A stretch of DNA of 64,000 bases from Chloroflexota bacterium (GTDB taxonomy: Bacteria > Chloroflexota > UBA11872 > VXOZ01), in assembly GCA_026710945.1 (NCBI GenBank), contig JAPOQA010000054.1, forward strand, positions 62,001 to 126,000, read 5' to 3'. Of this stretch, positions 42,735-53,532 are shown piece after piece. The position numbers and the translations under genes were made by a program. Each line of letters starts with the position of its first letter. The first letter of the stretch is position 1. The notes under the pieces are model-generated. The model was not told where the DNA came from, searched no databases, and saw nothing but the letters and a program-made list of their open reading frames with translations.

Positions 42735-43931
42735 TCAGCGGTCCTGGCGGTTCATGCGTTTCCGCAAGAAAGTCGGCACCTCAAGGTCGTGCTCCGCATC
42801 GACTTCGTCGATTTCTTCTGTTCCAATTGGAATGACAGAAGGCCGATCCCCGGAATCTGGGCTACGAGGCTCCACAGCGCCCCGCACACCCGGGCGGCGT
42901 ATGTCTTGCTCGTCAAAGCCGGTGGCAATGACAGTAATCTGAATGTCGGAGCTCATAGATTCTTCGATAACCGATCCGAAGATGATCTGGGCGTCAGGAT
43001 CGGCGGCATTGGAAATAATCTCGGCTGCTTGCGAGACTTCGTGCAGGCTCATATCCGGCCCGCCGGTGAAGTTGAGCAAAATGCCCTTAGCGCCGTCTAT
43101 GGACATTTCAAGCAACGGATTGGCCAAAGCGTCTCGCATTGCGTCCGCAGCGCGGTTCTCACCACTTCCGTACCCAATTGCCATATAGGCAGTACCGGAA
43201 TTCTGCATTATCGCCTTGACGTCATTGAAGTCAAGGTTAATGAGTCCAGGTTGTGTAATGAGATCTGAAATGCCCTGAACAGCCTGGCGCAGCACCTCAT
43301 CTGCCAAACGAAATGCTTCCGTAATCGGCGTATTCTTAGGGGCAATCTCTAGAATTCGATCATTCGGGATGGTGATGAGCGTGTCTACATGCTCTCGAAT
43401 ATTGCGAATGCCTTCTTCGCTTATGCGTTTGCGCGGTACGCCTTCCCATGTGAACGGTCGTGTCACGACACCGACCGTAAGGGCTGCAATGTTTCGGGAG
43501 ATTTCGCCAATGACGGGCGCAGAACCAGTACCGGTTCCACCTCCCATGCCAACGGCAATGAATACCATGTCCGAGCCGCGCAGCGCATCCTGCAACTCTT
43601 CGTAGGCTTCTTCCGCTGCCTTTTCGCCTACTGAGGGTTGTCCGCCGGCTCCCAGACCCTTCGTGAGTTTGTCGCCAATGCGGATTCGTCTTTCGGCCTG
43701 GGAACTCATCAAAGTCTGCGCATCGGTGTTCACGGCAATAAACTCAACGCCACTTACACCGCTCTGAATCATGCGGTCTACTGCATTGCCGCCTGCTCCG
43801 CCTGCGCCTACAACCTTGATGTGGGCCCAGGATTCTTGGCGCTGTCTTGGGTCCAATCGTCCCGATTCATCACTCGAACTTGAGGGAAGTCGAGAAATGC
43901 GGTTTTCTGCACCACTTGCCATGCGTACCAC
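42735..43931 (-). CDS. ftsZ: Cell division protein FtsZ
   Basis: 398 residues. GTP-binding motifs GAGGAGGNAVDRM and GGGTGTGSAPVIGE are intact, as is the T7 loop NLDFNDVKAIM that drives GTP hydrolysis across the filament. A variable linker leads to the conserved C-terminal peptide DLEVPTFLRKRM, which binds FtsA and other membrane tethers. FtsZ builds the cytokinetic ring. It follows ftsA by 11 bp and ends at the cluster terminator, so it is last in the cluster. Confidence 0.98.
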   Translation of the reverse strand: MVRMASGAENRISRLPSSSSDESGRLDPRQRQESWAHIKVVGAGGAGGNAVDRMIQSGVSGVEFIAVNTDAQTLMSSQAERRIRIGDKLTKGLGAGGQPSVGEKAAEEAYEELQDALRGSDMVFIAVGMGGGTGTGSAPVIGEISRNIAALTVGVVTRPFTWEGVPRKRISEEGIRNIREHVDTLITIPNDRILEIAPKNTPITEAFRLADEVLRQAVQGISDLITQPGLINLDFNDVKAIMQNSGTAYMAIGYGSGENRAADAMRDALANPLLEMSIDGAKGILLNFTGGPDMSLHEVSQAAEIISNAADPDAQIIFGSVIEESMSSDIQITVIATGFDEQDIRRPGVRGAVEPRSPDSGDRPSVIPIGTEEIDEVDAEHDLEVPTFLRKRMNRQDR

Positions 43932-43942
43932 CCTACGTAAAG

Positions 43943-45184
43943 TTAACTCATCGGAATAAGAGATCGCATGAGCGACCCAAGTCTCTCTGCCACTATACCA
44001 AGTGCAGCGCTCATGGGGCGCCGCACCCGTGCCCGCTGAAGTTTAGCGGCATACAATATCTGGCCGACACTGGTGGCAAACTCCGGTCGACAAATGTCCT
44101 CATTCATTCCCCGCATTAGGGGGACTACTCCCTGCCGCACAGGTAGACCCAGAACTGCTGATGCTAACTCCTCAAGACCGTGTAAATCTGAGCCGCCGCC
44201 TGTAAACACAACACCGGCCGGCAAGACGTCGAAGTATCCTGTGCGACGGATTTCATCCTTAACTAACTCTAAGAGCTCTTCCATGCGAGCCATTACTATC
44301 ATGGTAATGTCCCGCTGCTGGAGCACCGTCCACTTACCTGGATAGAAGCCAGGCGCATCGATTTCAGATTCGTCGTCAAGTGCCTCTTCAACTACCGTAG
44401 CGTACTGCAACTTGAGTTCTTCCGCAACATCCTGGGGCAATTTTAGGCCATATGAGATGTCCTTGGTAATATTAATGCCGCCAAGCGGGATACTTGCGGT
44501 ATGCCATGGTACGCCATCGGTATAAAGCACCATGTCAGTTGTGCCGCCGCCAATGTCGACGAGGACGACGCCAAGCTGCTTTTCCTGGTCCGACAGTACG
44601 GCCTCTGCCGCGGCGAGGGCCTGGGCGGTGATTTCTCCGTCCACAGCAAGTTCTGCAGCATTGACGCATGACGTCAGATTACGAATTGGCCCCACGCTGG
44701 CCGTAATCATGTGGACTTCCGCGCCGAGCACGTTTCCATACATGCCGATGGGATCACGGATTCCTTCAGTGCCGTCAAGCATGAACCCAACGGGGAATGC
44801 CGTGACTATTTGACGATCCTCTGGTATCGAGGCCCTGTGCGCCAACTCCAAGACATGGTCGATTTCCGCATGGGTAATCGCACCTTTGGATTGCTTCACC
44901 ACAGTCTCAACTCGCACAATTTGCGAACTGATATTGCAGCCACTAACGCTCAGATGTGTAGCGAGTGGTGTTTGCCCGAGAGACTGTTGGAGATACCCCA
45001 GGCACGTACGGATTGACCCGGTGGTGGCATCCATGTCTACCACGGCGCCACGAGTCAGGCCGTGTGTCGGCGCAATACCTAAGCCCACAATTCTCGGGAG
45101 ACCATCGGACGCAGTATCACATGCGATCGCACGTGTCTTGGTCGTTCCCACGTCAAGGCTGACGATGAGATTATTCTTGCTCAA
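43943..45184 (-). CDS. ftsA: Cell division protein FtsA
   Basis: 413 residues of the actin/Hsp70 ATPase fold: phosphate 1 SLDVGTTKTRAI, phosphate 2 LVDIGGGTTDMVLY, and adenosine site VVFTGGGSDLHGLEE. The SHS2 (1C) subdomain lies between. The C-terminus is basic and partly amphipathic, as expected for the membrane-targeting helix that anchors FtsZ. A well-formed promoter lies directly upstream, so ftsA-ftsZ can be transcribed apart from the rest of the cluster. Confidence 0.96.
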   Translation of the reverse strand: MSKNNLIVSLDVGTTKTRAIACDTASDGLPRIVGLGIAPTHGLTRGAVVDMDATTGSIRTCLGYLQQSLGQTPLATHLSVSGCNISSQIVRVETVVKQSKGAITHAEIDHVLELAHRASIPEDRQIVTAFPVGFMLDGTEGIRDPIGMYGNVLGAEVHMITASVGPIRNLTSCVNAAELAVDGEITAQALAAAEAVLSDQEKQLGVVLVDIGGGTTDMVLYTDGVPWHTASIPLGGINITKDISYGLKLPQDVAEELKLQYATVVEEALDDESEIDAPGFYPGKWTVLQQRDITMIVMARMEELLELVKDEIRRTGYFDVLPAGVVFTGGGSDLHGLEELASAVLGLPVRQGVVPLMRGMNEDICRPEFATSVGQILYAAKLQRARVRRPMSAALGIVAERLGSLMRSLIPMS

Positions 45185-45294: not shown

Positions 45295-46092
45295 TTATGT
45301 TCTAAATGTCGGACTCCGGCTTGGTTGCAGGTCTATGACGTCTAGCAAGAGTTGCTGTTCTTGCGCAACCTGGAGGACTGTCAGTAGTTCCTGAGTCTTT
45401 TCAACTATGCGATCTCCGCTGCCGTATTGTGCGATCCATCCCTCCGCTGCTTCGACGGACAGACCCTCTCGAGTTGAATACCTGAAAGCATTGATGCTAA
45501 TTCCGGAGCGCGACAAGAGATCCTGTAAGAGGAATGCCGTCTCCACGGCGCTGGCGTCAACAAGGTCTCCGGTATGGAGCGGCGCACCGGTGGTGTCGAT
45601 GAAGGTCAGCGTGAGATCCGGAGCATCGCCGCTGCCTATGATTACTCCCTCTCGCGAAATCAGGAAGACATGGCCATTGGCAATCCAACGCGCTTCCGGT
45701 TGCCGTTCTGCCATTTCGACTATCGCTCGGCTCGGCAAAACGAGAAAGAGCCTTGCGGCTGCCACCGCAGGCAATTGTGTAATCTGATTCGTTACCTGAT
45801 GAGGATCGAGCAAGAAGATGGATTGTCCCACGAGCCCCGTAAAAGACTGAATCTTCACGAGTGAGTTATCCCCGGCAAGCGTTGGTGGTGTGATGCGCCG
45901 AATTGCAACTATAGACACGTGAAACTCCGGTGAGGTGAGAGCTCCCCACAGTGCGATCGAAACGGAACATAGGATCATCAGTGAGAACCAGCGATGGCCG
46001 AATGTGCGCACCCCTCGACCTATGAGGCGAAAGGGCCCTCCCACACTGCTGACCTTGCCGGGTGTCTCAAGTTTCTGCACTCGTGCTGACAT
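45295..46092 (-). CDS. ftsQ: Cell division protein FtsQ/DivIB
   Basis: 265 residues: a cytoplasmic N-terminus of about 30, one membrane segment (about 34-53), then a POTRA domain (VSIVAIRRITPPTLAGDNSL onward) and the FtsQ beta domain with LPSRAIVEMAERQPEARW. It bridges FtsL/FtsB to the divisome in the cell-wall space. It lies 4 bp after murB. Sequence identity in this family is low; the call rests on topology, length and cluster position. Confidence 0.88.
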   Translation of the reverse strand: MSARVQKLETPGKVSSVGGPFRLIGRGVRTFGHRWFSLMILCSVSIALWGALTSPEFHVSIVAIRRITPPTLAGDNSLVKIQSFTGLVGQSIFLLDPHQVTNQITQLPAVAAARLFLVLPSRAIVEMAERQPEARWIANGHVFLISREGVIIGSGDAPDLTLTFIDTTGAPLHTGDLVDASAVETAFLLQDLLSRSGISINAFRYSTREGLSVEAAEGWIAQYGSGDRIVEKTQELLTVLQVAQEQQLLLDVIDLQPSRSPTFRT

Positions 46093-46096
46093 CGGT

Positions 46097-47056
46097 TTAT
46101 TGCTCCCAAGCGCCGAAGAATTCGATTTCCCGCTGCAATGTAATGTGCAGGTGAGCCTTCACCGCTTCTTCGATTTCTCGAATTAAGGCGAAAACTTCTG
46201 CTGCGGTTGCCGCGCCACTGTTGATGATAAAATTGGCGTGTAACGGGGAGACGTGCGCACCCCCGCTCTCCCGTCCGCGCATTCCTGCCTCGTCAATGAG
46301 CTTCCAGGCGCTAAGCCCGTCAGGATTACGGAAGACCGAACCGGAGCTTGGAGCAGTGGGTTGTGTGCGCTGCCGCGTTTGCAACCGCTCTTGTATCGTG
46401 GATAGAATTCGACTTGCGTCACCCGGCGCCAACCGCATTTCGGCTCCCAACACCACGGCATATCCAGGACACTCTTTGATGATGCTGGTTCGATAGCCAT
46501 AACGCATTTCATCGGCAGGTATCCAGCGTTCACCATGGCGGTCCAATACCTTAATGCGTGTGACTGATTCCGCTGTTGTCCACCCATACGCGCCGGCATT
46601 GTTGACTATCGCTCCACCCACTGTTCCGGGAATTGTTGCCGCGCCTTCAAGCCCTGATAGCCCCAAGCTCGCTGCCCAACGTGCTGTGCTGATAAGAGAG
46701 CACCCCGCTTCTGCCCAAATTGAAACACCGTCAGCACATTGACTGGGACTGCCGCCATGGTTTCGGATCACTAACCCGCGTATGCCGGCATCGGCGGCAA
46801 TGAGATTCGTCCCGTCTCCAATCACACGAAATTGAAGAGACTGTTTGTAAGCAACTGCCGCCAATGCGCGCAGGGCCTCTTCGGAACGTACACGAATAAG
46901 GAGGTCGGCCGGGCCGCCCACGCGCACCGACGTGTGCCTTGCCAGAGGCTCGTGCCACGCCGGCTTCAAGTTGAGCGGCGATCGTACGGCGACGGCAGCA
47001 ATACCGGCCAATCCTTGTGCAGCCGGTTCCTCAGTTGGCGGACGTTTGCATTGCAT
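46097..47056 (-). CDS. murB: UDP-N-acetylenolpyruvoylglucosamine reductase
   Basis: 319 residues from the ATG at 47056, which is 11 bp after the murC stop; an earlier frame opening at 47125 overlaps murC and is less likely. FAD-binding features: HTSVRVGGPADLLIRV and IPGTVGGAIVNNAGAYG; the catalytic Ser is in PSSGSVFRNP; GAHVSPLHANFIIN near the end is typical of type II MurB. It reduces enolpyruvyl-UDP-GlcNAc to UDP-MurNAc using NADPH, the second step of peptidoglycan precursor synthesis. Confidence 0.95.
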   Translation of the reverse strand: MQCKRPPTEEPAAQGLAGIAAVAVRSPLNLKPAWHEPLARHTSVRVGGPADLLIRVRSEEALRALAAVAYKQSLQFRVIGDGTNLIAADAGIRGLVIRNHGGSPSQCADGVSIWAEAGCSLISTARWAASLGLSGLEGAATIPGTVGGAIVNNAGAYGWTTAESVTRIKVLDRHGERWIPADEMRYGYRTSIIKECPGYAVVLGAEMRLAPGDASRILSTIQERLQTRQRTQPTAPSSGSVFRNPDGLSAWKLIDEAGMRGRESGGAHVSPLHANFIINSGAATAAEVFALIREIEEAVKAHLHITLQREIEFFGAWEQ

Positions 47057-47067
47057 TGAAGTAGGGC

Positions 47068-48489
47068 TCACGACGGTGATTCCATTGGCATGCGATTCTG
47101 CAAATGCTCGAGAAGCGGATCGCACAGCTCAGTAATATCTCCCGCTCCCATGACGATTATGAGATCGCCAGATTCGATCAATCGCATTACTTGGGTGAGG
47201 GCGTCTCTCAGTGTTGCCGCGTACCGCGCATTTCCTGGTCTGGTTACAGCCTCTGCAAGGTCTGCACTCGAGAGAGGCAGCGGGTCTTCTCGCCCGGTCG
47301 GCTGATAGATTTCGACAAGTATGAGCTCGTCAGCGCCGCGAAATGCCTCGGCGAACTCGTCAAAGAGATCGGCAGTTCGACTGCGCAGGTGCGGTTGGAA
47401 GACGCAGACTATGCGGCCCTCGTGCCAATCTCTTGCAGCGCGCAATGTTGCCCGGACTTCCGTAGGATGGTGGGCGTAGTCATCCACCAACGTAACCCCA
47501 TTCTCTCGTCCCCTCACTTCAAATCGCCGCCTGACCCCTTGAAAGTGGTTCAGTGCCATTACAACCGAGCTTGCAGGAACGCCCACAGCATCGAGCGCCG
47601 TCACGCAGGCTAAGGCATTCAGGACGTTGTGGACACCTGGAATGCGCAGCGAGAGGCTAAGACGCTCCCCAGTGACACTCTGAATCGTCGCTTCATATCC
47701 GTCGCCCTTGCGAGGCGTGAGCTCTGAAGAGACCCATTGGGCTCTACCGCGCAAGGACCAGGTTCTCAGCCGACTGTCAGCTACTGCGGCAACGCGGCGG
47801 CAGGTGACGCTGTCCGCGTGTGTTGCAACAGTACCGTCAGCGGGCAGCTTGTGTACAAGGTCTCGGAATGCACTTTCCAGGTTCTCTAGCGTACCGTATG
47901 TATCGAGGTGATCGGCTTCGACCGCGGTAATGACGACGACACTTGGGAATAGTTCGAGGAAGGCGCGGTCAAACTCATCGGCCTCAATCACCATGATCGA
48001 TCCGGTGCCCCAATGAGAGCTGTGAGGGAAATTCTGTGGGTCACCGCCAATCATGTATGAAGGGTCCTGCCTGTTGGCGCGCAGCGCGTGCGTGATCATG
48101 GTGCTTGTCGTTGTCTTGCCGTGGGTACCTGCGACGGCGATTGTGGTCTTTTCAAGTGACAGCGCACCTTGGAGCACAGCACGATTGACCGTAGGTATAC
48201 CATCTTGCTCAGATGCAACCAACTCGGGGTTGTCGGGCAAAATTGCGGAGCTGAACACGGTAAGATCGGAGCCGGCGACATTGGCAGCCGCATGCCCAAC
48301 GTGCACAGTAGCGCCCAAATCGCGCAGCGTGTCGAGGTTGTCGGAGGCAGCCACATCTGAACCGCTGATCTGATGCCCTTGTATCGTAAGTATGCGCGCG
48401 AGTCCAGACATAGCGGCGCCGCCCACCCCAATGAGGTGGACGTTGCGAGGGTGGGTCCCCAGAAATTGCTGTAACTCGTGTGCATTCAC
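47068..48489 (-). CDS. murC: UDP-N-acetylmuramate-L-alanine ligase
   Basis: 473 residues from the GTG at 48489, 10 bp after the ftsW stop and close to AAGGG; the longer open frame reaching 48639 would overlap ftsW. Motifs: NVHLIGVGGAAMSGLA, ATP-binding GTHGKTTTSTMI, VEADEFDRAFL, and YAHHPTEV. It attaches L-Ala to UDP-MurNAc. It is the only amino-acid ligase of the stem-peptide pathway here; murD, murE and murF are absent from the cluster. Confidence 0.95.
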   Translation of the reverse strand: MNAHELQQFLGTHPRNVHLIGVGGAAMSGLARILTIQGHQISGSDVAASDNLDTLRDLGATVHVGHAAANVAGSDLTVFSSAILPDNPELVASEQDGIPTVNRAVLQGALSLEKTTIAVAGTHGKTTTSTMITHALRANRQDPSYMIGGDPQNFPHSSHWGTGSIMVIEADEFDRAFLELFPSVVVITAVEADHLDTYGTLENLESAFRDLVHKLPADGTVATHADSVTCRRVAAVADSRLRTWSLRGRAQWVSSELTPRKGDGYEATIQSVTGERLSLSLRIPGVHNVLNALACVTALDAVGVPASSVVMALNHFQGVRRRFEVRGRENGVTLVDDYAHHPTEVRATLRAARDWHEGRIVCVFQPHLRSRTADLFDEFAEAFRGADELILVEIYQPTGREDPLPLSSADLAEAVTRPGNARYAATLRDALTQVMRLIESGDLIIVMGAGDITELCDPLLEHLQNRMPMESPS

Positions 48490-48499
48490 CCCGTAACCC

Positions 48500-49729
48500 T
48501 TACACTTGGCGACCACCGTCGGGCCTGGAATGCCAGGTTTGACGGCTCTTATTCCTAGTAACTTGCGTTGTTTGAGTCGAAATATTGAGTAGTAAGCCCA
48601 TGGCAATTGAGCTGGCGAGAAGCGACGAACCGCCGGCACTGACGAAAGGGAGTGGAATGCCGGTAAAAGGCAGCATGCCGGTTACGACTGCCATGTTGAG
48701 GATCGCCTGGCCGAAGAGTCCGCACGTCAGCCCTAGGGCGAGCAACTGTCCAAACAAGTCCGGCGCTCTGACGGCAACGCCAAACCCTCGCCAAGCCAGT
48801 AGTACAAAGAGAGAGAGCACCGCCAGTGTCCCGATAAGGCCCAACTCTTCGCCGATGACGGCAAAGATTGTGTCGGTGTGGGGCTCGGGCATGTAGAAGA
48901 ACTTCTGCATCCCCCGACCAAGGCCAACGCCGGTTATCTTGCCCGATGCAAAGGCGTAAAGGGCCTGGACGTTGTGGTGCGCGACGTTGTCTTGATATTG
49001 AGGGTTGAAGGGGTCAAGGTACGCAGTGAGCCGTTGCAGCCGATAGGGATGCAGCACAATAGCGTACCAAGCGGCGAACGATCCGGCGACAAGAAAGCCG
49101 GCAAGATAGAGAAGCGGAATGCGAGCCGCAACGAGAATTGACATGCCTATGAGCAAAATCATAATTGCAGTGCCGAGGTCCGGTTGCTGAGCGATGATTG
49201 CGGCTACGAGCCCCACCAGCAGAGTGGGTGCCAGAAAGTACACGAGCCTGTTGGCTCCCTTATCGCGCCTAGCAAGGACCTGGGCGAGATAGAGAGCAAT
49301 TACGGGCTTTACTAATTCGCTGGGTTGCAAGCTCAACGGTCCCCATCGAATCCAGCGTACGGACCCCCGAGACAAGTGGCCAATGTCTGTCACCGCCATT
49401 AACACCAGTACTGCGACTGCGGCCGCCAGGAGCCAGAAGGAAAGGTTGATTCCGAGAAATTGAATGCGGCCAAACCAATGATAGTCAATCCGCATCATGG
49501 TGAATGCTGCCGCAAAGCCCACGACGAGGAACAAGAGCTGGCGACGAAAGTAGAAGTGTGGATCACCAGTCTCTGCATAGGCAACGGCAATACTGGCACT
49601 ATAGATGGCAATCAATCCAATGAGAGGCAATGCCAGCATTAATACGGTCAGCGGAACGTCCGGCCAGCGCGCGTGTTGTTCATCGTCATCCCTGTTCGCA
49701 GGAATAGTCCCGGGTAGAATTCGCAGCAT
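48500..49729 (-). CDS. ftsW: SEDS-family peptidoglycan glycosyltransferase FtsW
   Basis: 409 residues, about ten membrane segments. SEDS features include the catalytic-loop region QPSELVKPVIALYLA, AQQPDLGTAIMILLIG and GLGRGMQKFFYMPEPHTDTIFAVIGEE, and the C-terminal PFVSAGGSSLL. It polymerises lipid II glycan strands at the septum together with the class B PBP encoded 5 bp upstream. The cytoplasmic tail after the last helix is short and basic. Confidence 0.96.
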   Translation of the reverse strand: MLRILPGTIPANRDDDEQHARWPDVPLTVLMLALPLIGLIAIYSASIAVAYAETGDPHFYFRRQLLFLVVGFAAAFTMMRIDYHWFGRIQFLGINLSFWLLAAAVAVLVLMAVTDIGHLSRGSVRWIRWGPLSLQPSELVKPVIALYLAQVLARRDKGANRLVYFLAPTLLVGLVAAIIAQQPDLGTAIMILLIGMSILVAARIPLLYLAGFLVAGSFAAWYAIVLHPYRLQRLTAYLDPFNPQYQDNVAHHNVQALYAFASGKITGVGLGRGMQKFFYMPEPHTDTIFAVIGEELGLIGTLAVLSLFVLLAWRGFGVAVRAPDLFGQLLALGLTCGLFGQAILNMAVVTGMLPFTGIPLPFVSAGGSSLLASSIAMGLLLNISTQTTQVTRNKSRQTWHSRPDGGRQV

Positions 49730-49734
49730 TGCTG

Positions 49735-51492
49735 TCAGCTTGAACCTTCCTGCACAAGGGTCTGCTGGGGAGCTGACCGCGGGATGTGGTAATAGCGGAA
49801 CAGTTCGGAAGCAACTTCGCGAAACACCGGCGCGGCGACCAGTGATCCCCAGGGCTCTACGGTCGGGTGATCTATCTTGACTAAGATCGCGAATCTGGGA
49901 CTCTCTACAGGGCCAAAACCTACGTATGAAGCGATGGTCAACTCTGCGTGATAGCCACCGGTCTCTAGAGGAATTGAAGCAGTGCCGGTCTTTCCGGCAA
50001 CATCGTACCCATCAACGATGTGCATCTTGCTCTCTGAGCGCTTACTCGCTTCCACAAGCATCGAAACGAGGGTGCGAGCAGAGTCCTTGCGCACGACGCG
50101 GCGCACCGCTCTGGGCTCGATGCGTTGTACACCCGCTTCCGTGTGGACTTCCTGTACGACATACGGCTGCATGAGTACGCCGTCATTGATGAGGGCCGAT
50201 ACGGCGGTGATGAGTTGGAGTGGCGTCACGGCAATGCCTTGGCCGAATGCGTTGGTTGCAAGACTAGACGGATACCAGTAACGCGAATTCGGATCAGGAA
50301 CAAGACCATTCACCTCGCCCCAAAGATCAACGCCTGTCGGCGCACCAAAGCCAAAGGCGGTGACGTACTCGTAGAAGAGGTCTTTACCCAACTGGTCTCC
50401 TACCCACACGGCGCCAACGTTGCTAGAGCGAGCAATGAGATCGGTCATATCGCTTTCGCCATGACCCTTTTCATCCCAGTTCTTTATCTCCACGCCCCAG
50501 TACTCCATACTTCCGACATCGTTGAACTTGACTTCAGGCGTGATGATGCCGGCGTCTAGAGCTCCGGCCAGTGTAAAGACTTTGAACGTAGAACCCGGTT
50601 CATACAACAGGCTGATGGCGGGGTTGGCGTACGCATCTTCATTCGGGCTGTGAAACTCCTGATACTTGTTGGAGTCGTACGTTGGGCGGCTCGCCATGGC
50701 AATAATGGCCCCGGTATACGGTTCCATGACAATAATCGTGCCGGCCGACGCGCCGTAGCGTTCTAATGCGGCTTCGAGTTCTCTCTCTACAATGTGCTGC
50801 ACTGTGCCGTCCAGCGTAAGGACCAGGTCTGCACCGGGTTCGGCGGGCTGCAGCACCCAAGTTGCCTCTCCTGCCTCACCGCCGAATGGCGCGCTGGAGC
50901 TCAACCGTCGTCCCGGAGCTCCTTGCAGCAAATCCTCGTAGTATCCTTCAACTCCGTATTGGCCGCTGCCGCTCTGGCTGTAAAATCCCACTACGTGGGC
51001 GGCAAGCATGCCGAGCGGATACGTGCGATAGGGAACGGCGCTTAGTGTGATTCCGGGTACTTCGCCGGATCGCACAAGTTGCTCGATGCGTTCGCTTGTG
51101 TCCGGAGTTACGCCCCTTGCCAAGAGAGCGTATCGCTTGTCAGGCTGATCAATCAGGGCGGCGATTTTTTCTTGAGGCATGCCGAGGAGTTCCGTCAACT
51201 CACTGGCGATTTCATTCGCCGAAATGCCACTGCCCTGCACGACATTGGGTGCTACTTCCACGTCGTTTAGGTATTTTGCAGTTGCCAGTAGTGTACGATT
51301 TGCGTCAAGTATGCTGCCGCGCTGGGGCACGATCTGGGTATCACGCTGGTACTGTTCCTGCGCGAGGGATGCCAGGCTTTCGCTTTCCAGGACATGCAAC
51401 CAGATCAGCGCGCCAGCAATGACGAACGCCCCCATCAGCGAGAAAACCTGGATTATGCGAATTCGCGCGGCACTGATGGGTTCACCAGGCAT
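49735..51492 (-). CDS. ftsI: Class B penicillin-binding protein (FtsI-type transpeptidase)
   Basis: 585 residues from the ATG at 51492, which has GAGGAG upstream and overlaps ftsL by 11 bp. One N-terminal membrane anchor (about 15-37) precedes the dimerisation domain (QIVPQRGSILDANRTLLA) and the transpeptidase domain. Active-site motifs: GSTFK (SxxK, nucleophilic Ser), SSN (SxN), and KTGTAS. There is no C-terminal PASTA repeat. It cross-links septal peptidoglycan in partnership with FtsW. Confidence 0.95.
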   Translation of the reverse strand: MPGEPISAARIRIIQVFSLMGAFVIAGALIWLHVLESESLASLAQEQYQRDTQIVPQRGSILDANRTLLATAKYLNDVEVAPNVVQGSGISANEIASELTELLGMPQEKIAALIDQPDKRYALLARGVTPDTSERIEQLVRSGEVPGITLSAVPYRTYPLGMLAAHVVGFYSQSGSGQYGVEGYYEDLLQGAPGRRLSSSAPFGGEAGEATWVLQPAEPGADLVLTLDGTVQHIVERELEAALERYGASAGTIIVMEPYTGAIIAMASRPTYDSNKYQEFHSPNEDAYANPAISLLYEPGSTFKVFTLAGALDAGIITPEVKFNDVGSMEYWGVEIKNWDEKGHGESDMTDLIARSSNVGAVWVGDQLGKDLFYEYVTAFGFGAPTGVDLWGEVNGLVPDPNSRYWYPSSLATNAFGQGIAVTPLQLITAVSALINDGVLMQPYVVQEVHTEAGVQRIEPRAVRRVVRKDSARTLVSMLVEASKRSESKMHIVDGYDVAGKTGTASIPLETGGYHAELTIASYVGFGPVESPRFAILVKIDHPTVEPWGSLVAAPVFREVASELFRYYHIPRSAPQQTLVQEGSS

Positions 51493-51955
51493 TGAGAGAC
51501 TCCTCACCGAAGAGCGCGTTGAATTGCTCGCGAACAAGGTCCCATCGGGTGCTGAACGGCCAGTTCTTCTCACTTGCTTCCGCATCTTGAGTCAGCACCA
51601 GCTCCTTTGCTCGTTCAGGCACCTGCACAAAATGCACCCGGCTTGCCGGCACCATGCCGAGCCGCCCTCTGGCGATAGATTCTATGGTGCGCAGATCGCT
51701 GGCTTGGGCAATCTGAGTCCTCAAGAGCTGGTTTTCCCGTTCGACTTGCTCAATGGTGCGTTCCAATGCCTGAATTCGAAAGCCCGCGTCAGCGACTTGA
51801 CCCGTGGGCATCAGATAGAGCAATCCGACTAGAAATAGCACGAGAATGCCCATGTCCACTGCTACTAACGGGCTAAGTTCGTAATACCACGGCTTGCGCT
51901 CAGGACTGTCCGCACGTGCGTTCGGTCGAGGGAGAATTGCGTCTTGTTGTGCCAT
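51482..51955 (-). CDS. ftsL: FtsL/DivIC-like division protein
   Basis: 157 residues with the FtsL layout: a cytoplasmic N-terminus (about 1-30), one membrane segment (about 31-50, VDMGILVLFLVGLLYL), then a coiled coil (RIQALERTIEQVERENQLLR) and the IESIARGRLGMVPASR region. It links FtsQ to FtsWI activation. The family is defined more by topology and place between rsmH and ftsI than by sequence, and both fit here. Confidence 0.8.
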   Translation of the reverse strand: MAQQDAILPRPNARADSPERKPWYYELSPLVAVDMGILVLFLVGLLYLMPTGQVADAGFRIQALERTIEQVERENQLLRTQIAQASDLRTIESIARGRLGMVPASRVHFVQVPERAKELVLTQDAEASEKNWPFSTRWDLVREQFNALFGEESLNAW

Positions 51956-51972: not shown

Positions 51973-52914
51973 TCAAACACGTTCTGCGATGCGAAGACGC
52001 GCACTGCGACTGCGTGGATTCTTCGCGATTTCCGCCTCGTCAGCCCGTACGGGCTTCCGTGTCAGCACGCGGAGCGTAACGCGCGGACCGCAAACACACT
52101 GTGGAATGTTTCCAGGACAGATGCACTGCCCCGCTGCGCGCTGCAGGAACCCTTTCACAATGCGGTCCTCCAGGCTGTGAAAAGCAATGACTACCAGGCG
52201 ACCGCCGCGAACAAGGAGATCACGGGCCTGCTCCAAAGCGCTCTGCAGGTGTTCCAATTCACCGTTTACGGCGATGCGCAGGGCCTGGAATGTCCTTGTG
52301 GCTGGGTGAATGCGGTGTCTTCCGCTCCCATAGGCAGCCTGCACGATTCTTGCCAAGTCGCTGACCACGGTCAGTGGACGATCGCGTCGTTGGGCGACAA
52401 TGCGCCGCGCGATGCGCCGCGCATGTCGCTCTTCGCCGAACTCCCAGATCAGGTTTCCCAGGGCCTCTTGATCCCACGTATTGACTATTGTGGCTGCGGT
52501 GAGGCCTTGCGTCGGGTCCATGCGCATGTCTAAGGGACCTTCTTGTTGCCAGGAAAACCCACGTTGGGGATTTGCGATTTGCAGGGACGACATGCCGAGA
52601 TCGAAGAGAATGCCGTTCGCCTTGCAGAATCCGCTGTGTTCCGCCTCGGCAAGCAAATGGGCGAAGTTGCACTGCTTAAGTAATGCCCGTTTGCCGAAGC
52701 CCTGTAGTCGTGCCGTGCAGCGAACTAGTGCTTGGCGGTCGACGTCCAACCCTAGCAAGAGACCACCGGGAGTGCTTTCAGAAAGTATCCCTGCGGCGTG
52801 GCCGCCTCCGTTAACGGTGCAATCGATGAATCGTCCACCGTTGCTCGCCCGTAGACCCTCCAATACTTGGGGTAGCAGGACGGGCACATGCATTGCAACG
52901 GTCTGTGCGGTCAT
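51973..52914 (-). CDS. rsmH: 16S rRNA (cytosine-1402-N4)-methyltransferase RsmH (MraW)
   Basis: 313 residues. Signatures: MHVPVLLPQVLEGL, the SAM-binding IDCTVNGGGHAAGIL, LFDLGMSSLQI, RGFSWQQEGPLDMRMD and VVIAFHSLEDRIVKGF. It methylates C1402 in the decoding centre of 16S rRNA. It follows mraZ by 85 bp, the standard start of a dcw cluster. Confidence 0.97.
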   Translation of the reverse strand: MTAQTVAMHVPVLLPQVLEGLRASNGGRFIDCTVNGGGHAAGILSESTPGGLLLGLDVDRQALVRCTARLQGFGKRALLKQCNFAHLLAEAEHSGFCKANGILFDLGMSSLQIANPQRGFSWQQEGPLDMRMDPTQGLTAATIVNTWDQEALGNLIWEFGEERHARRIARRIVAQRRDRPLTVVSDLARIVQAAYGSGRHRIHPATRTFQALRIAVNGELEHLQSALEQARDLLVRGGRLVVIAFHSLEDRIVKGFLQRAAGQCICPGNIPQCVCGPRVTLRVLTRKPVRADEAEIAKNPRSRSARLRIAERV

Positions 52915-52999: not shown

Positions 53000-53431
53000 T
53001 TAAATGCCGAGATCGGCCAGTTGTTCTGCGAGACTGCCGCCTGTAGCTTCAGTTGTGGTCTTGACCGCGTTCCAATCCTCAAGACACCAGACTTCAATGC
53101 GCTGGTATAATCCGATAACCGCCACATTCGCTGTGATTCCGGCATATTCGCGCAGGTATTGTGGAAGAATTGTCCGGCCTTGACCGTCCAGTGACAGGTC
53201 TACAGCTCCCGAAAAGAGCAGGCGGCTCAGGGTTCGCACATTTGGTTGGGTTTGCGGTAGCCGGCTGACCTTCTCCGCAAGTGCTTGCCACTCAATGCGG
53301 GGGTAGATGACTAAGCACTTATCAAGGCCGCGCGTGACCACGGCGCCGTCCGCAAGCTCTTCACGAAACTTCGCCGGAATAGCGAGACGTCCCTTCTGGT
53401 CCACCGTGTGTTGGAACTCGCCAAGGAACAA
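53000..53431 (-). CDS. mraZ: Transcriptional regulator/division protein MraZ
   Basis: 143 residues of two AbrB-like SpoVT repeats. MFLGEFQHTVDQKGRLAIPAK is the typical start; the second repeat has DLSLDGQGRTILPQYLREYA. The start codon is TTG at 53431, preceded by CAGGT; no ATG is available at the conserved N-terminus. MraZ forms rings that bind direct repeats before its own gene and controls the dcw cluster. Such repeats are visible at 53441-53495. Confidence 0.95.
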   Translation of the reverse strand: MFLGEFQHTVDQKGRLAIPAKFREELADGAVVTRGLDKCLVIYPRIEWQALAEKVSRLPQTQPNVRTLSRLLFSGAVDLSLDGQGRTILPQYLREYAGITANVAVIGLYQRIEVWCLEDWNAVKTTTEATGGSLAEQLADLGI

Positions 53432-53440
53432 AGTTACCTG

Positions 53441-53495
53441 CCCACTAAAGGGGACTTATCCACACTTCCCCCCACTTCTCCCCACATTTATCCAC
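53441..53495 (-). promoter_or_regulatory. Row of 10-bp direct repeats, probable MraZ operator
   Basis: Read on the plus strand, the cores CCCAC, GGGAC, CACAC, CCCAC, CCCAC and TCCAC begin at 53441, 53451, 53461, 53471, 53481 and 53491, exactly every 10 bp. On the minus strand the best units read AAGTGGG. Known MraZ sites in E. coli (TGGGN with a 5-bp spacer) and Mycoplasma (AAAGTG-type) have the same core and spacing. The row lies between the promoter and the TTG start, a repressing position. Confidence 0.75.
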
Positions 53496-53496
53496 A
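53456..53496. promoter_or_regulatory. Two perfect DnaA boxes (TTATCCACA) 32 bp apart
   Basis: TTATCCACA occurs at 53456-53464 and 53488-53496, same orientation, three helical turns apart, inside the mraZ leader. They overlap the 10-bp MraZ-type repeats, so the match may be a by-product of those. If functional, DnaA could link replication to division-gene expression. No AT-rich unwinding element is beside them. Confidence 0.45.
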
Positions 53497-53502
53497 AGCA
53501 CA

Positions 53503-53532
53503 ATTGTAGCTGTCGCTGTTGGCGAAGGTCAA
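53503..53532 (-). promoter_or_regulatory. Promoter of mraZ and the dcw cluster
   Basis: On the minus strand, TTGACC (53532-53527), an 18-bp spacer and TACAAT (53508-53503). Transcription would begin near 53496, at the first of the 10-bp repeats. A second TTGACA lies at 53545-53540. Confidence 0.6.

Follow-up and report, generated by a model that had tools for sequence, protein, structure and literature searches.

Introduction

MraZ is described, in the available part of PMC8475190, as a repressor of the dcw genes that acts through MraZ boxes, and the accessible portion of PMC5282649 gives the Mycoplasma box consensus as (AAAGTGKN3)3. The mraZ leader of E. coli reads GTGGGAAATT GTGGGGCAAA GTGGGAATAA; there are no DnaA boxes inside its MraZ cells, and one TGTGGAAAA is found at -244. 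DnaA has also been placed at promoters of division genes: the part of PMC8203912 that is available reports binding to the B. subtilis ftsL promoter region and to the Caulobacter ftsZ promoter, states that subsequent work found no role in ftsZ transcription for the DnaA boxes that lie upstream of ftsZ in E. coli, and adds that a major effect of DnaA on the timing of division has been shown in no species. Upon arrest of replication initiation in B. subtilis, those ftsL operon products that were detected seemed unchanged, according to the accessible section of PMC11019786. The linkage between replication initiation and division is an open question in cell biology. Among the titles and abstract openings that we searched, which mostly lie outside the subscription literature, we found no published report of DnaA boxes at an mraZ operator. 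Here, we describe such boxes, predicted from their sequence, in the mraZ leader of the window, i.e., the whole 64-kb stretch of Chloroflexota DNA that was analysed.

Results

The mraZ leader and its gene cluster

The mraZ leader examined here lies on the minus strand (53496 to 53436), and mraZ is the first gene of a minus-strand dcw cluster that extends to ftsZ (Table 1); a frame at 45295–46092, between murB and ftsA, gave no match in the Pfam search. Both the TTGACC/TACAAT promoter and the TTG start that the initial annotation had assigned to mraZ were confirmed, since a promoter-like TTGACC-18-TACAAT is present ahead of the gene (53532–53503) and the TTG is at 53431. Downstream of this promoter the order is GTGGATAAAT GTGGGGAGAA GTGGGGGGAA GTGTGGATAA GTCCCCTTTA GTGGGCAGGT, with GTGGA, GTGGG, GTGGG, GTGTG, GTCCC, and GTGGG as the cores of the six in-register cells (GTG in five of six; GTGGG in three of six). 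The first four GTGG cores follow one another at steps of 10, 10, and 12 bp. Four GTGK cores in exact 10-bp steps occurred once in the 64 kb (53462–53495) and in 0 of 100 shuffles.

All six leaders of the genus (that of the window and those of five relatives, recorded as Chloroflexi or Chloroflexota MAGs) retained the GTGG of cells 1–3. Cell 4 had no in-register GTG in two of them, L003 and L006. Cells 5 and 6, the latter of which overlaps a likely ribosome-binding site (by eye), were variable across the genus. The leader had been described as six GTGGG-type cores exactly every 10 bp; with GTCCC as cell 5, GTGGG in half of the cells, and no conservation of cells 5 and 6 in the genus, we rejected a strict six-cell array. 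The underlying proposal of an MraZ operator fared better. At least three GTG-core repeats in 10-bp steps lie between the promoter and the start of an MraZ-family gene, and the position, the published shape of the box, the E. coli leader, and the frequency of such chains in other leaders (see below) all support it. The leader is, as judged from its bases, a real MraZ-type operator with three or four good 10-bp cells, to which MraZ is predicted to bind. As solved MraZ structures exist (1n0e, 9qlr, 9qlg, and 9sx6), the geometry of the leader is open to modelling.

The window also contains dnaA, and the distance between dnaA and mraZ is approximately 38–42 kb on one contig in five of the six genus genomes. 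The encoded DnaA aligns with the DnaA of 8btg, which we take to be that of B. subtilis, over residues 8–454 of 462 (E 7.5e-122), and retains a GGRDHTTV stretch that is presumably the DNA-reading helix.

Table 1. Positions of the leader elements, the dcw cluster genes, and dnaA in the window
Feature	Position	Strand	Remark
-35 TTGACC of the mraZ promoter	53527–53532	-	CTTGACC invariant in 6/6 genus leaders
-10 TACAAT of the mraZ promoter	53503–53508	-	TATAAT in five relatives
DnaA-type box 1, TTATCCACA	53488–53496	+	6 nt beyond -10; overlaps MraZ cell 1
MraZ cell 1 in register, GTGGATAAAT	53486–53495	-	same bases as DnaA-type box 1
MraZ cell 2, GTGGGGAGAA	53476–53485	-	GTGGGGA invariant in 6/6
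MraZ cell 3, GTGGGGGGAA	53466–53475	-	AAGTGGG invariant in 6/6
MraZ cell 4 in register, GTGTGGATAA	53456–53465	-	GTG retained in 4/6
DnaA-type box 2, TTATCCACA	53456–53464	+	overlaps in-register MraZ cell 4
Cell 5 (GTCCC, degenerate) and cell 6 (GTGGGCAGG)	53436–53455	-	conservation absent
mraZ, TTG start at 53431	53000–53431	-	Pfam MraZ, E 1.6e-34
rsmH/mraW	51973–52914	-	Pfam Methyltransf_5
FtsL/DivIC-like small protein	51482–51955	-	Pfam DivIC, 28.4 bits, slightly below the cut-off of 28.9
FtsI-type penicillin-binding protein	49735–51585	-	Pfam Transpeptidase and PBP_dimer
FtsW/RodA family	48500–49729	-	
Mur ligase (murC by position)	47068–48639	-	
murB	46097–47125	-	
ftsA	43943–45184	-	
ftsZ	42735–43931	-	
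dnaA	13394–14782	-	approximately 38 kb away from mraZ; no adjacent DnaA-box cluster

Two DnaA-type boxes frame the MraZ cells and are conserved in the genus

Two perfect TTATCCACA boxes 32 bp apart had been noted in the leader, and as exact sequence they are there: both are canonical 9-bp DnaA boxes, they are the only TTATCCACA copies in the window (expected 0.23; two or more in 1 of 100 shuffles), and the word matches the consensus TTWTNCACA (taken from the available part of PMC7561715). The GTGG of box 2 lies 12 bp past the GTGG of cell 3 and 32 bp past that of box 1, i.e., the second TTATCCACA stands two bases outside the MraZ register and follows a GTGGGG core by 12 bp, not 10. The boxes had been thought to lie inside a six-cell grid; the grid was wrong, and the boxes frame the array and partly overlap it.

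Across the window and the five relatives (L002–L006), the invariant columns of the leader were TTGTGGATA, GTGGGGA, AAGTGGG, and TGTGGANAA. Box 1 was an exact TTATCCACA in five of the six leaders and CTATCCACA in L006, and box 2 was TTNTCCACA in all six (TTATCCACA in three and TTTTCCACA in three). Since two relatives have lost the GTG of cell 4 and cells 5 and 6 vary, downstream conservation is confined to the 9-mer TTNTCCACA and does not extend to the remainder of the six-cell grid. Relatives that keep the GTGGG phasing without TTATCCACA had been named as evidence that would speak against DnaA. In the genus there was no such case, with TTNTCCACA at both places in five of six leaders. At the level of the class such relatives do exist: at 24 loci from two other class families with mraZ (L034–L057), TTATCCAC occurred in neither orientation, and TTNTCCACA was found within 300 nt of mraZ at L035 alone, as TTGTCCACA.

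Framing pairs with fixed spacing recur in other families

We collected 140 mraZ loci, nearly all of the same phylum, placed 133 starts, and obtained 103 non-redundant leaders; those from beyond the phylum are L008–L011, which belong to the 102 leaders counted below, and E. coli. As the lineages are related, the census counts that follow are not independent events. A chain of at least three GTG[GT] cells, with steps of 10 or 12 bp permitted, was present in 85 of the 103 leaders, 51 of which have exactly three cells. Measuring the distance between sense-strand GTGGANAA pairs in the 102 non-redundant leaders gave 32 bp in five cases, 42 bp in 11, and 53 bp in one, and no pair at any other distance from 15 to 120. 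In 16 of the 102 leaders the layout is the same, namely TGTGGANAA, two or three MraZ cells, and TGTGGANAA, with ends 32 or 42 bp apart. These 16 leaders span seven families, i.e., that of the window (f1) and six others of the phylum (f27, f41, f46, f55, f68, and f92). The first box is mostly 10 bp ahead of the next cell (8 bp in L141), the last box is 12 bp past the last cell, and there are two cells between boxes 32 bp apart and three between boxes 42 bp apart. The gap therefore grows by one 10-bp cell, and the boxes stay about three or four helical turns apart. In four leaders (L106, L076, L078, and L072) the last T of TATAAT is also the first base of box 1.

To describe the composition of the sites, we used 18 framed leaders; GTGGA at both ends was the selection criterion, which means that its A is there by construction. 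The base before GTGGA was T in 32 of 36 outer sites vs. 5 of 47 inner cells, and GTGGANAA was present in 34 of 36 outer sites vs. 0 of 47 inner cells; as these values come from selected leaders, the unbiased tests are the pair spacing, the near-vs.-far word counts, and the 8-mer count.

A second layout was seen in 18 leaders of three further families (f12, f19, and f36), in which TTATCCAC boxes precede both a -10-like site and an ordinary GTGGGG array. Here TTATCCAC is on the sense strand, i.e., in the orientation opposite to that of the framing boxes. The boxes are arranged in tandem at 11 bp (11 pairs) or 12 bp (one pair), and 13 leaders add GTGGATAA 25–38 bp further on.

Counts of the box words near and far from mraZ

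Within 250 nt of mraZ, TTNTCCACA had 48 matches, in 35 of 102 leaders (25,500 bases), and was absent from the other 67, vs. 0 matches in the 53,509 bases from -1500 to -450. The corresponding counts were 61 near and 3 far for TTATCCAC, and 0, 0, and 1 near vs. 2, 0, and 3 far for three scrambled control words. On these near-vs.-far counts of TTNTCCACA and of the scrambled words, we rejected chance as the source of the boxes. Twelve other patterns were counted for pairs: ten had none at 32 or 42 bp, and the remaining two, narrower versions of the word itself, reproduced the GTGGANAA result. A motif-free 8-mer count returned GTGGATAA as the commonest word outside the GTGGGG cells (33 of 102 leaders; 3 distant stretches), and the 9-mer TGTGGATAA occurred in 25 of 102 leaders vs. 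0 far stretches.

The same 9-mer elsewhere in the genome and the phylum

In the genome that holds the window, TTATCCACA occurs 15 times vs. 9 for a reversed control; it is rare, and its enrichment is not strong. Pairs of GTGGATAA with 5–35 bp between them were found at two places only in this genome, at mraZ and at G000:C22:5438-5467. The latter pair is intergenic, has a 22-bp step, lies in the surroundings GATATCCTA between a GNAT-like and a glucoamylase-like frame (by eye) on a contig other than that of dnaA, and is kept in all six genus genomes; it is the best candidate for the origin of the genus, and may instead be a DnaA titration site. The GC skew of the window was uninformative.

In five genus genomes, no cluster of TTATCCACA-like boxes was detected at a distance of up to 1.5 kb from the dnaA match, and none was detected at dnaA in 12 of 13 other genomes. 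In one genome of the same class (G024), dnaA and a ParB-like frame (ParB by eye) are separated by a stretch with three TTATCCACA at 20–21 bp. Across the phylum, direct TGTGGATAA pairs with 5–35 bp between them were present in 158 of 399 genomes and the reversed pattern in 0. Of 30 such pair loci, three had DnaA within about 1.5 kb and 27 did not; for six of these 27, a Pfam search on nine neighbouring frames returned no replication genes, and a tenth neighbouring frame, of L209, had no Pfam match.

We also inspected contig ends and dnaA flanks of ten genomes (G304, G169, G340, G143, G005, G024, G086, G180, G107, and G222) and saw clustered boxes only in G024, G340, G169, and G180, where the G169 stretch had been chosen for its known pair and the G180 cluster is that genome's own mraZ leader. 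The G169 stretch (L185:957-1104) holds TTATCAACA and TTATCCACA at an 11-bp step with TGTGGATAA 24 bp on; it resembles the upstream mraZ boxes of other families and adjoins an ABC substrate-binding-like gene (by eye). In G340 three boxes (TTCTCCACA, TTATCCACA, and an inverted TTATCCACA; L186:12977-13025) lie about 7 kb from dnaA. Seven TGTGGANAA boxes on a single strand were seen in less than 300 bp in G213 (L197, 1420–1709), near an EcoO109I-type restriction endonuclease frame.

Discussion

We favour, as the more probable reading, a composite operator at the head of the dcw cluster, made up of an MraZ operator and the DnaA boxes that frame it, with DnaA probably repressing. This reading builds on the sites and their conservation, on the constancy of their spacing, and on the same 9-mer in arrays beside dnaA in some relatives, all of which are directly observed. 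From the anatomy of the leader we infer that MraZ would bind the three to four GTGGG-type 10-bp cells just downstream of the -10 and thereby repress its own gene, in line with the autorepression known from E. coli and Mycoplasma, and that DnaA would occupy the two TTATCCACA boxes that flank this core, predicted to face the same side of the helix. Box 1 begins at the seventh base beyond the -10, at about the predicted +1, and shares its GTGG with MraZ cell 1. DnaA bound to the boxes might occlude the -10/+1 region or stop the polymerase, and its binding would be incompatible with that of MraZ to cells 1–4, at minimum in cells 1 and 4, the two ends, so that the level or the nucleotide state of DnaA would determine the point in the replication cycle at which the cluster is transcribed. 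Repression seems the likeliest sign for either protein because, at both sites, a bound protein would be in the way of open-complex formation or of early elongation. Competition between the two proteins and coupling of replication to division, both raised in the initial annotation, are predicted features of this model. In the layout with the upstream cluster, DnaA could act as an activator or as a repressor.

Since the GTGG core is common to the outer sites and the MraZ cells, MraZ may also bind the outer sites, and one may go further and read the outer TGTGGANAA as terminal MraZ sites, without DnaA, i.e., as a variant that is read by the ends of the MraZ ring, with the 12-bp step relaxing the curved DNA. 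Consistent with this, the outer sites have their GTGG on the strand used by the inner cells, the 10-bp register includes cell 1, and the Mycoplasma consensus AAAGTGKN3 leaves the bases past GTGK free (PMC5282649, available part). We nevertheless consider it rather unlikely, given that GTGGANAA is nearly fixed in the outer sites and absent from the inner cells of the GTGGA-selected leaders, that three cells make up the commonest array (51 of 103), that L003 and L006 drop the in-register core and keep the offset 9-mer, and that the same word is arrayed beside dnaA and, in three further families, found inverted ahead of the promoter. DnaA might instead be bound for titration or nucleotide exchange only, as at datA and DARS, with mraZ transcription unaffected. 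Further intergenic box pairs away from dnaA fit such a role, which is still less likely in our judgment because the position of the boxes is bound to the mraZ promoter across many families and shifts with the number of MraZ cells, and box 1 contacts the -10 in four leaders.

The identity of the reader of the boxes can also be questioned. A different regulator that recognises a TTATCCAC-like site would agree with the absence of a box cluster at dnaA in the genus and with the ninth base being variable among the leaders (TTATCCACC, -G, and -T alongside -A); against it, TTATCCACA matches the DnaA-box consensus (PMC7561715, available part) and adjoins dnaA in G024 and at three other loci, and we regard such a regulator as very improbable. 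A G-quadruplex has been claimed for S. aureus mraZ in the available part of PMC11796246, and the runs of guanines downstream of the promoter are alike here. The conserved units, however, are 10-bp GTG cores and TTNTCCACA, not four runs of at least three G, and the runs up to the second box in L002 are GGGG, GGG, GG, and GG; the G-rich stretch in S. aureus could itself represent an array of MraZ cells. A G-quadruplex as the meaning of this leader is, to our mind, hardly credible.

Returning to DnaA boxes that frame an MraZ operator, it is quite possible, and we propose it tentatively, that in much of the Chloroflexota DnaA and MraZ compete at interleaved, helically phased sites of the dcw promoter, such that the initiation of replication would time the division genes, and that this link also evolved in another set of families by way of an upstream cluster of DnaA boxes. 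The persistence of the layout in some distant relatives hints that the start of replication and division may be wired together. The conserved box pair around the dcw MraZ operator offers a concrete site for testing the replication–division link, and one phylum supplies a natural series of leaders without boxes, with a framing pair at 32 or 42 bp, and with an upstream cluster.

What is known and ordinary at this locus is the MraZ operator itself; what is new is its conserved and unusual DnaA-box frame. Like the MraZ operators of E. coli and Mycoplasma, that of the window consists of direct repeats of a GTG core at 10 bp immediately downstream of the mraZ promoter; unlike them, it is framed by TTATCCACA and its last step is 12 bp, which is conserved. 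Putative DnaA sites at a division-gene promoter are shared with B. subtilis ftsL and Caulobacter ftsZ (PMC8203912, available part), whereas the boxes described here frame an MraZ operator, at a fixed helical spacing, in seven families. Similarly, the leader resembles the DnaA-box arrays of replication origins in its 9-mer and in the use of direct repeats near whole turns (20–21 bp in G024), and differs from them in its steps of 32 or 42 bp and in its location at mraZ.
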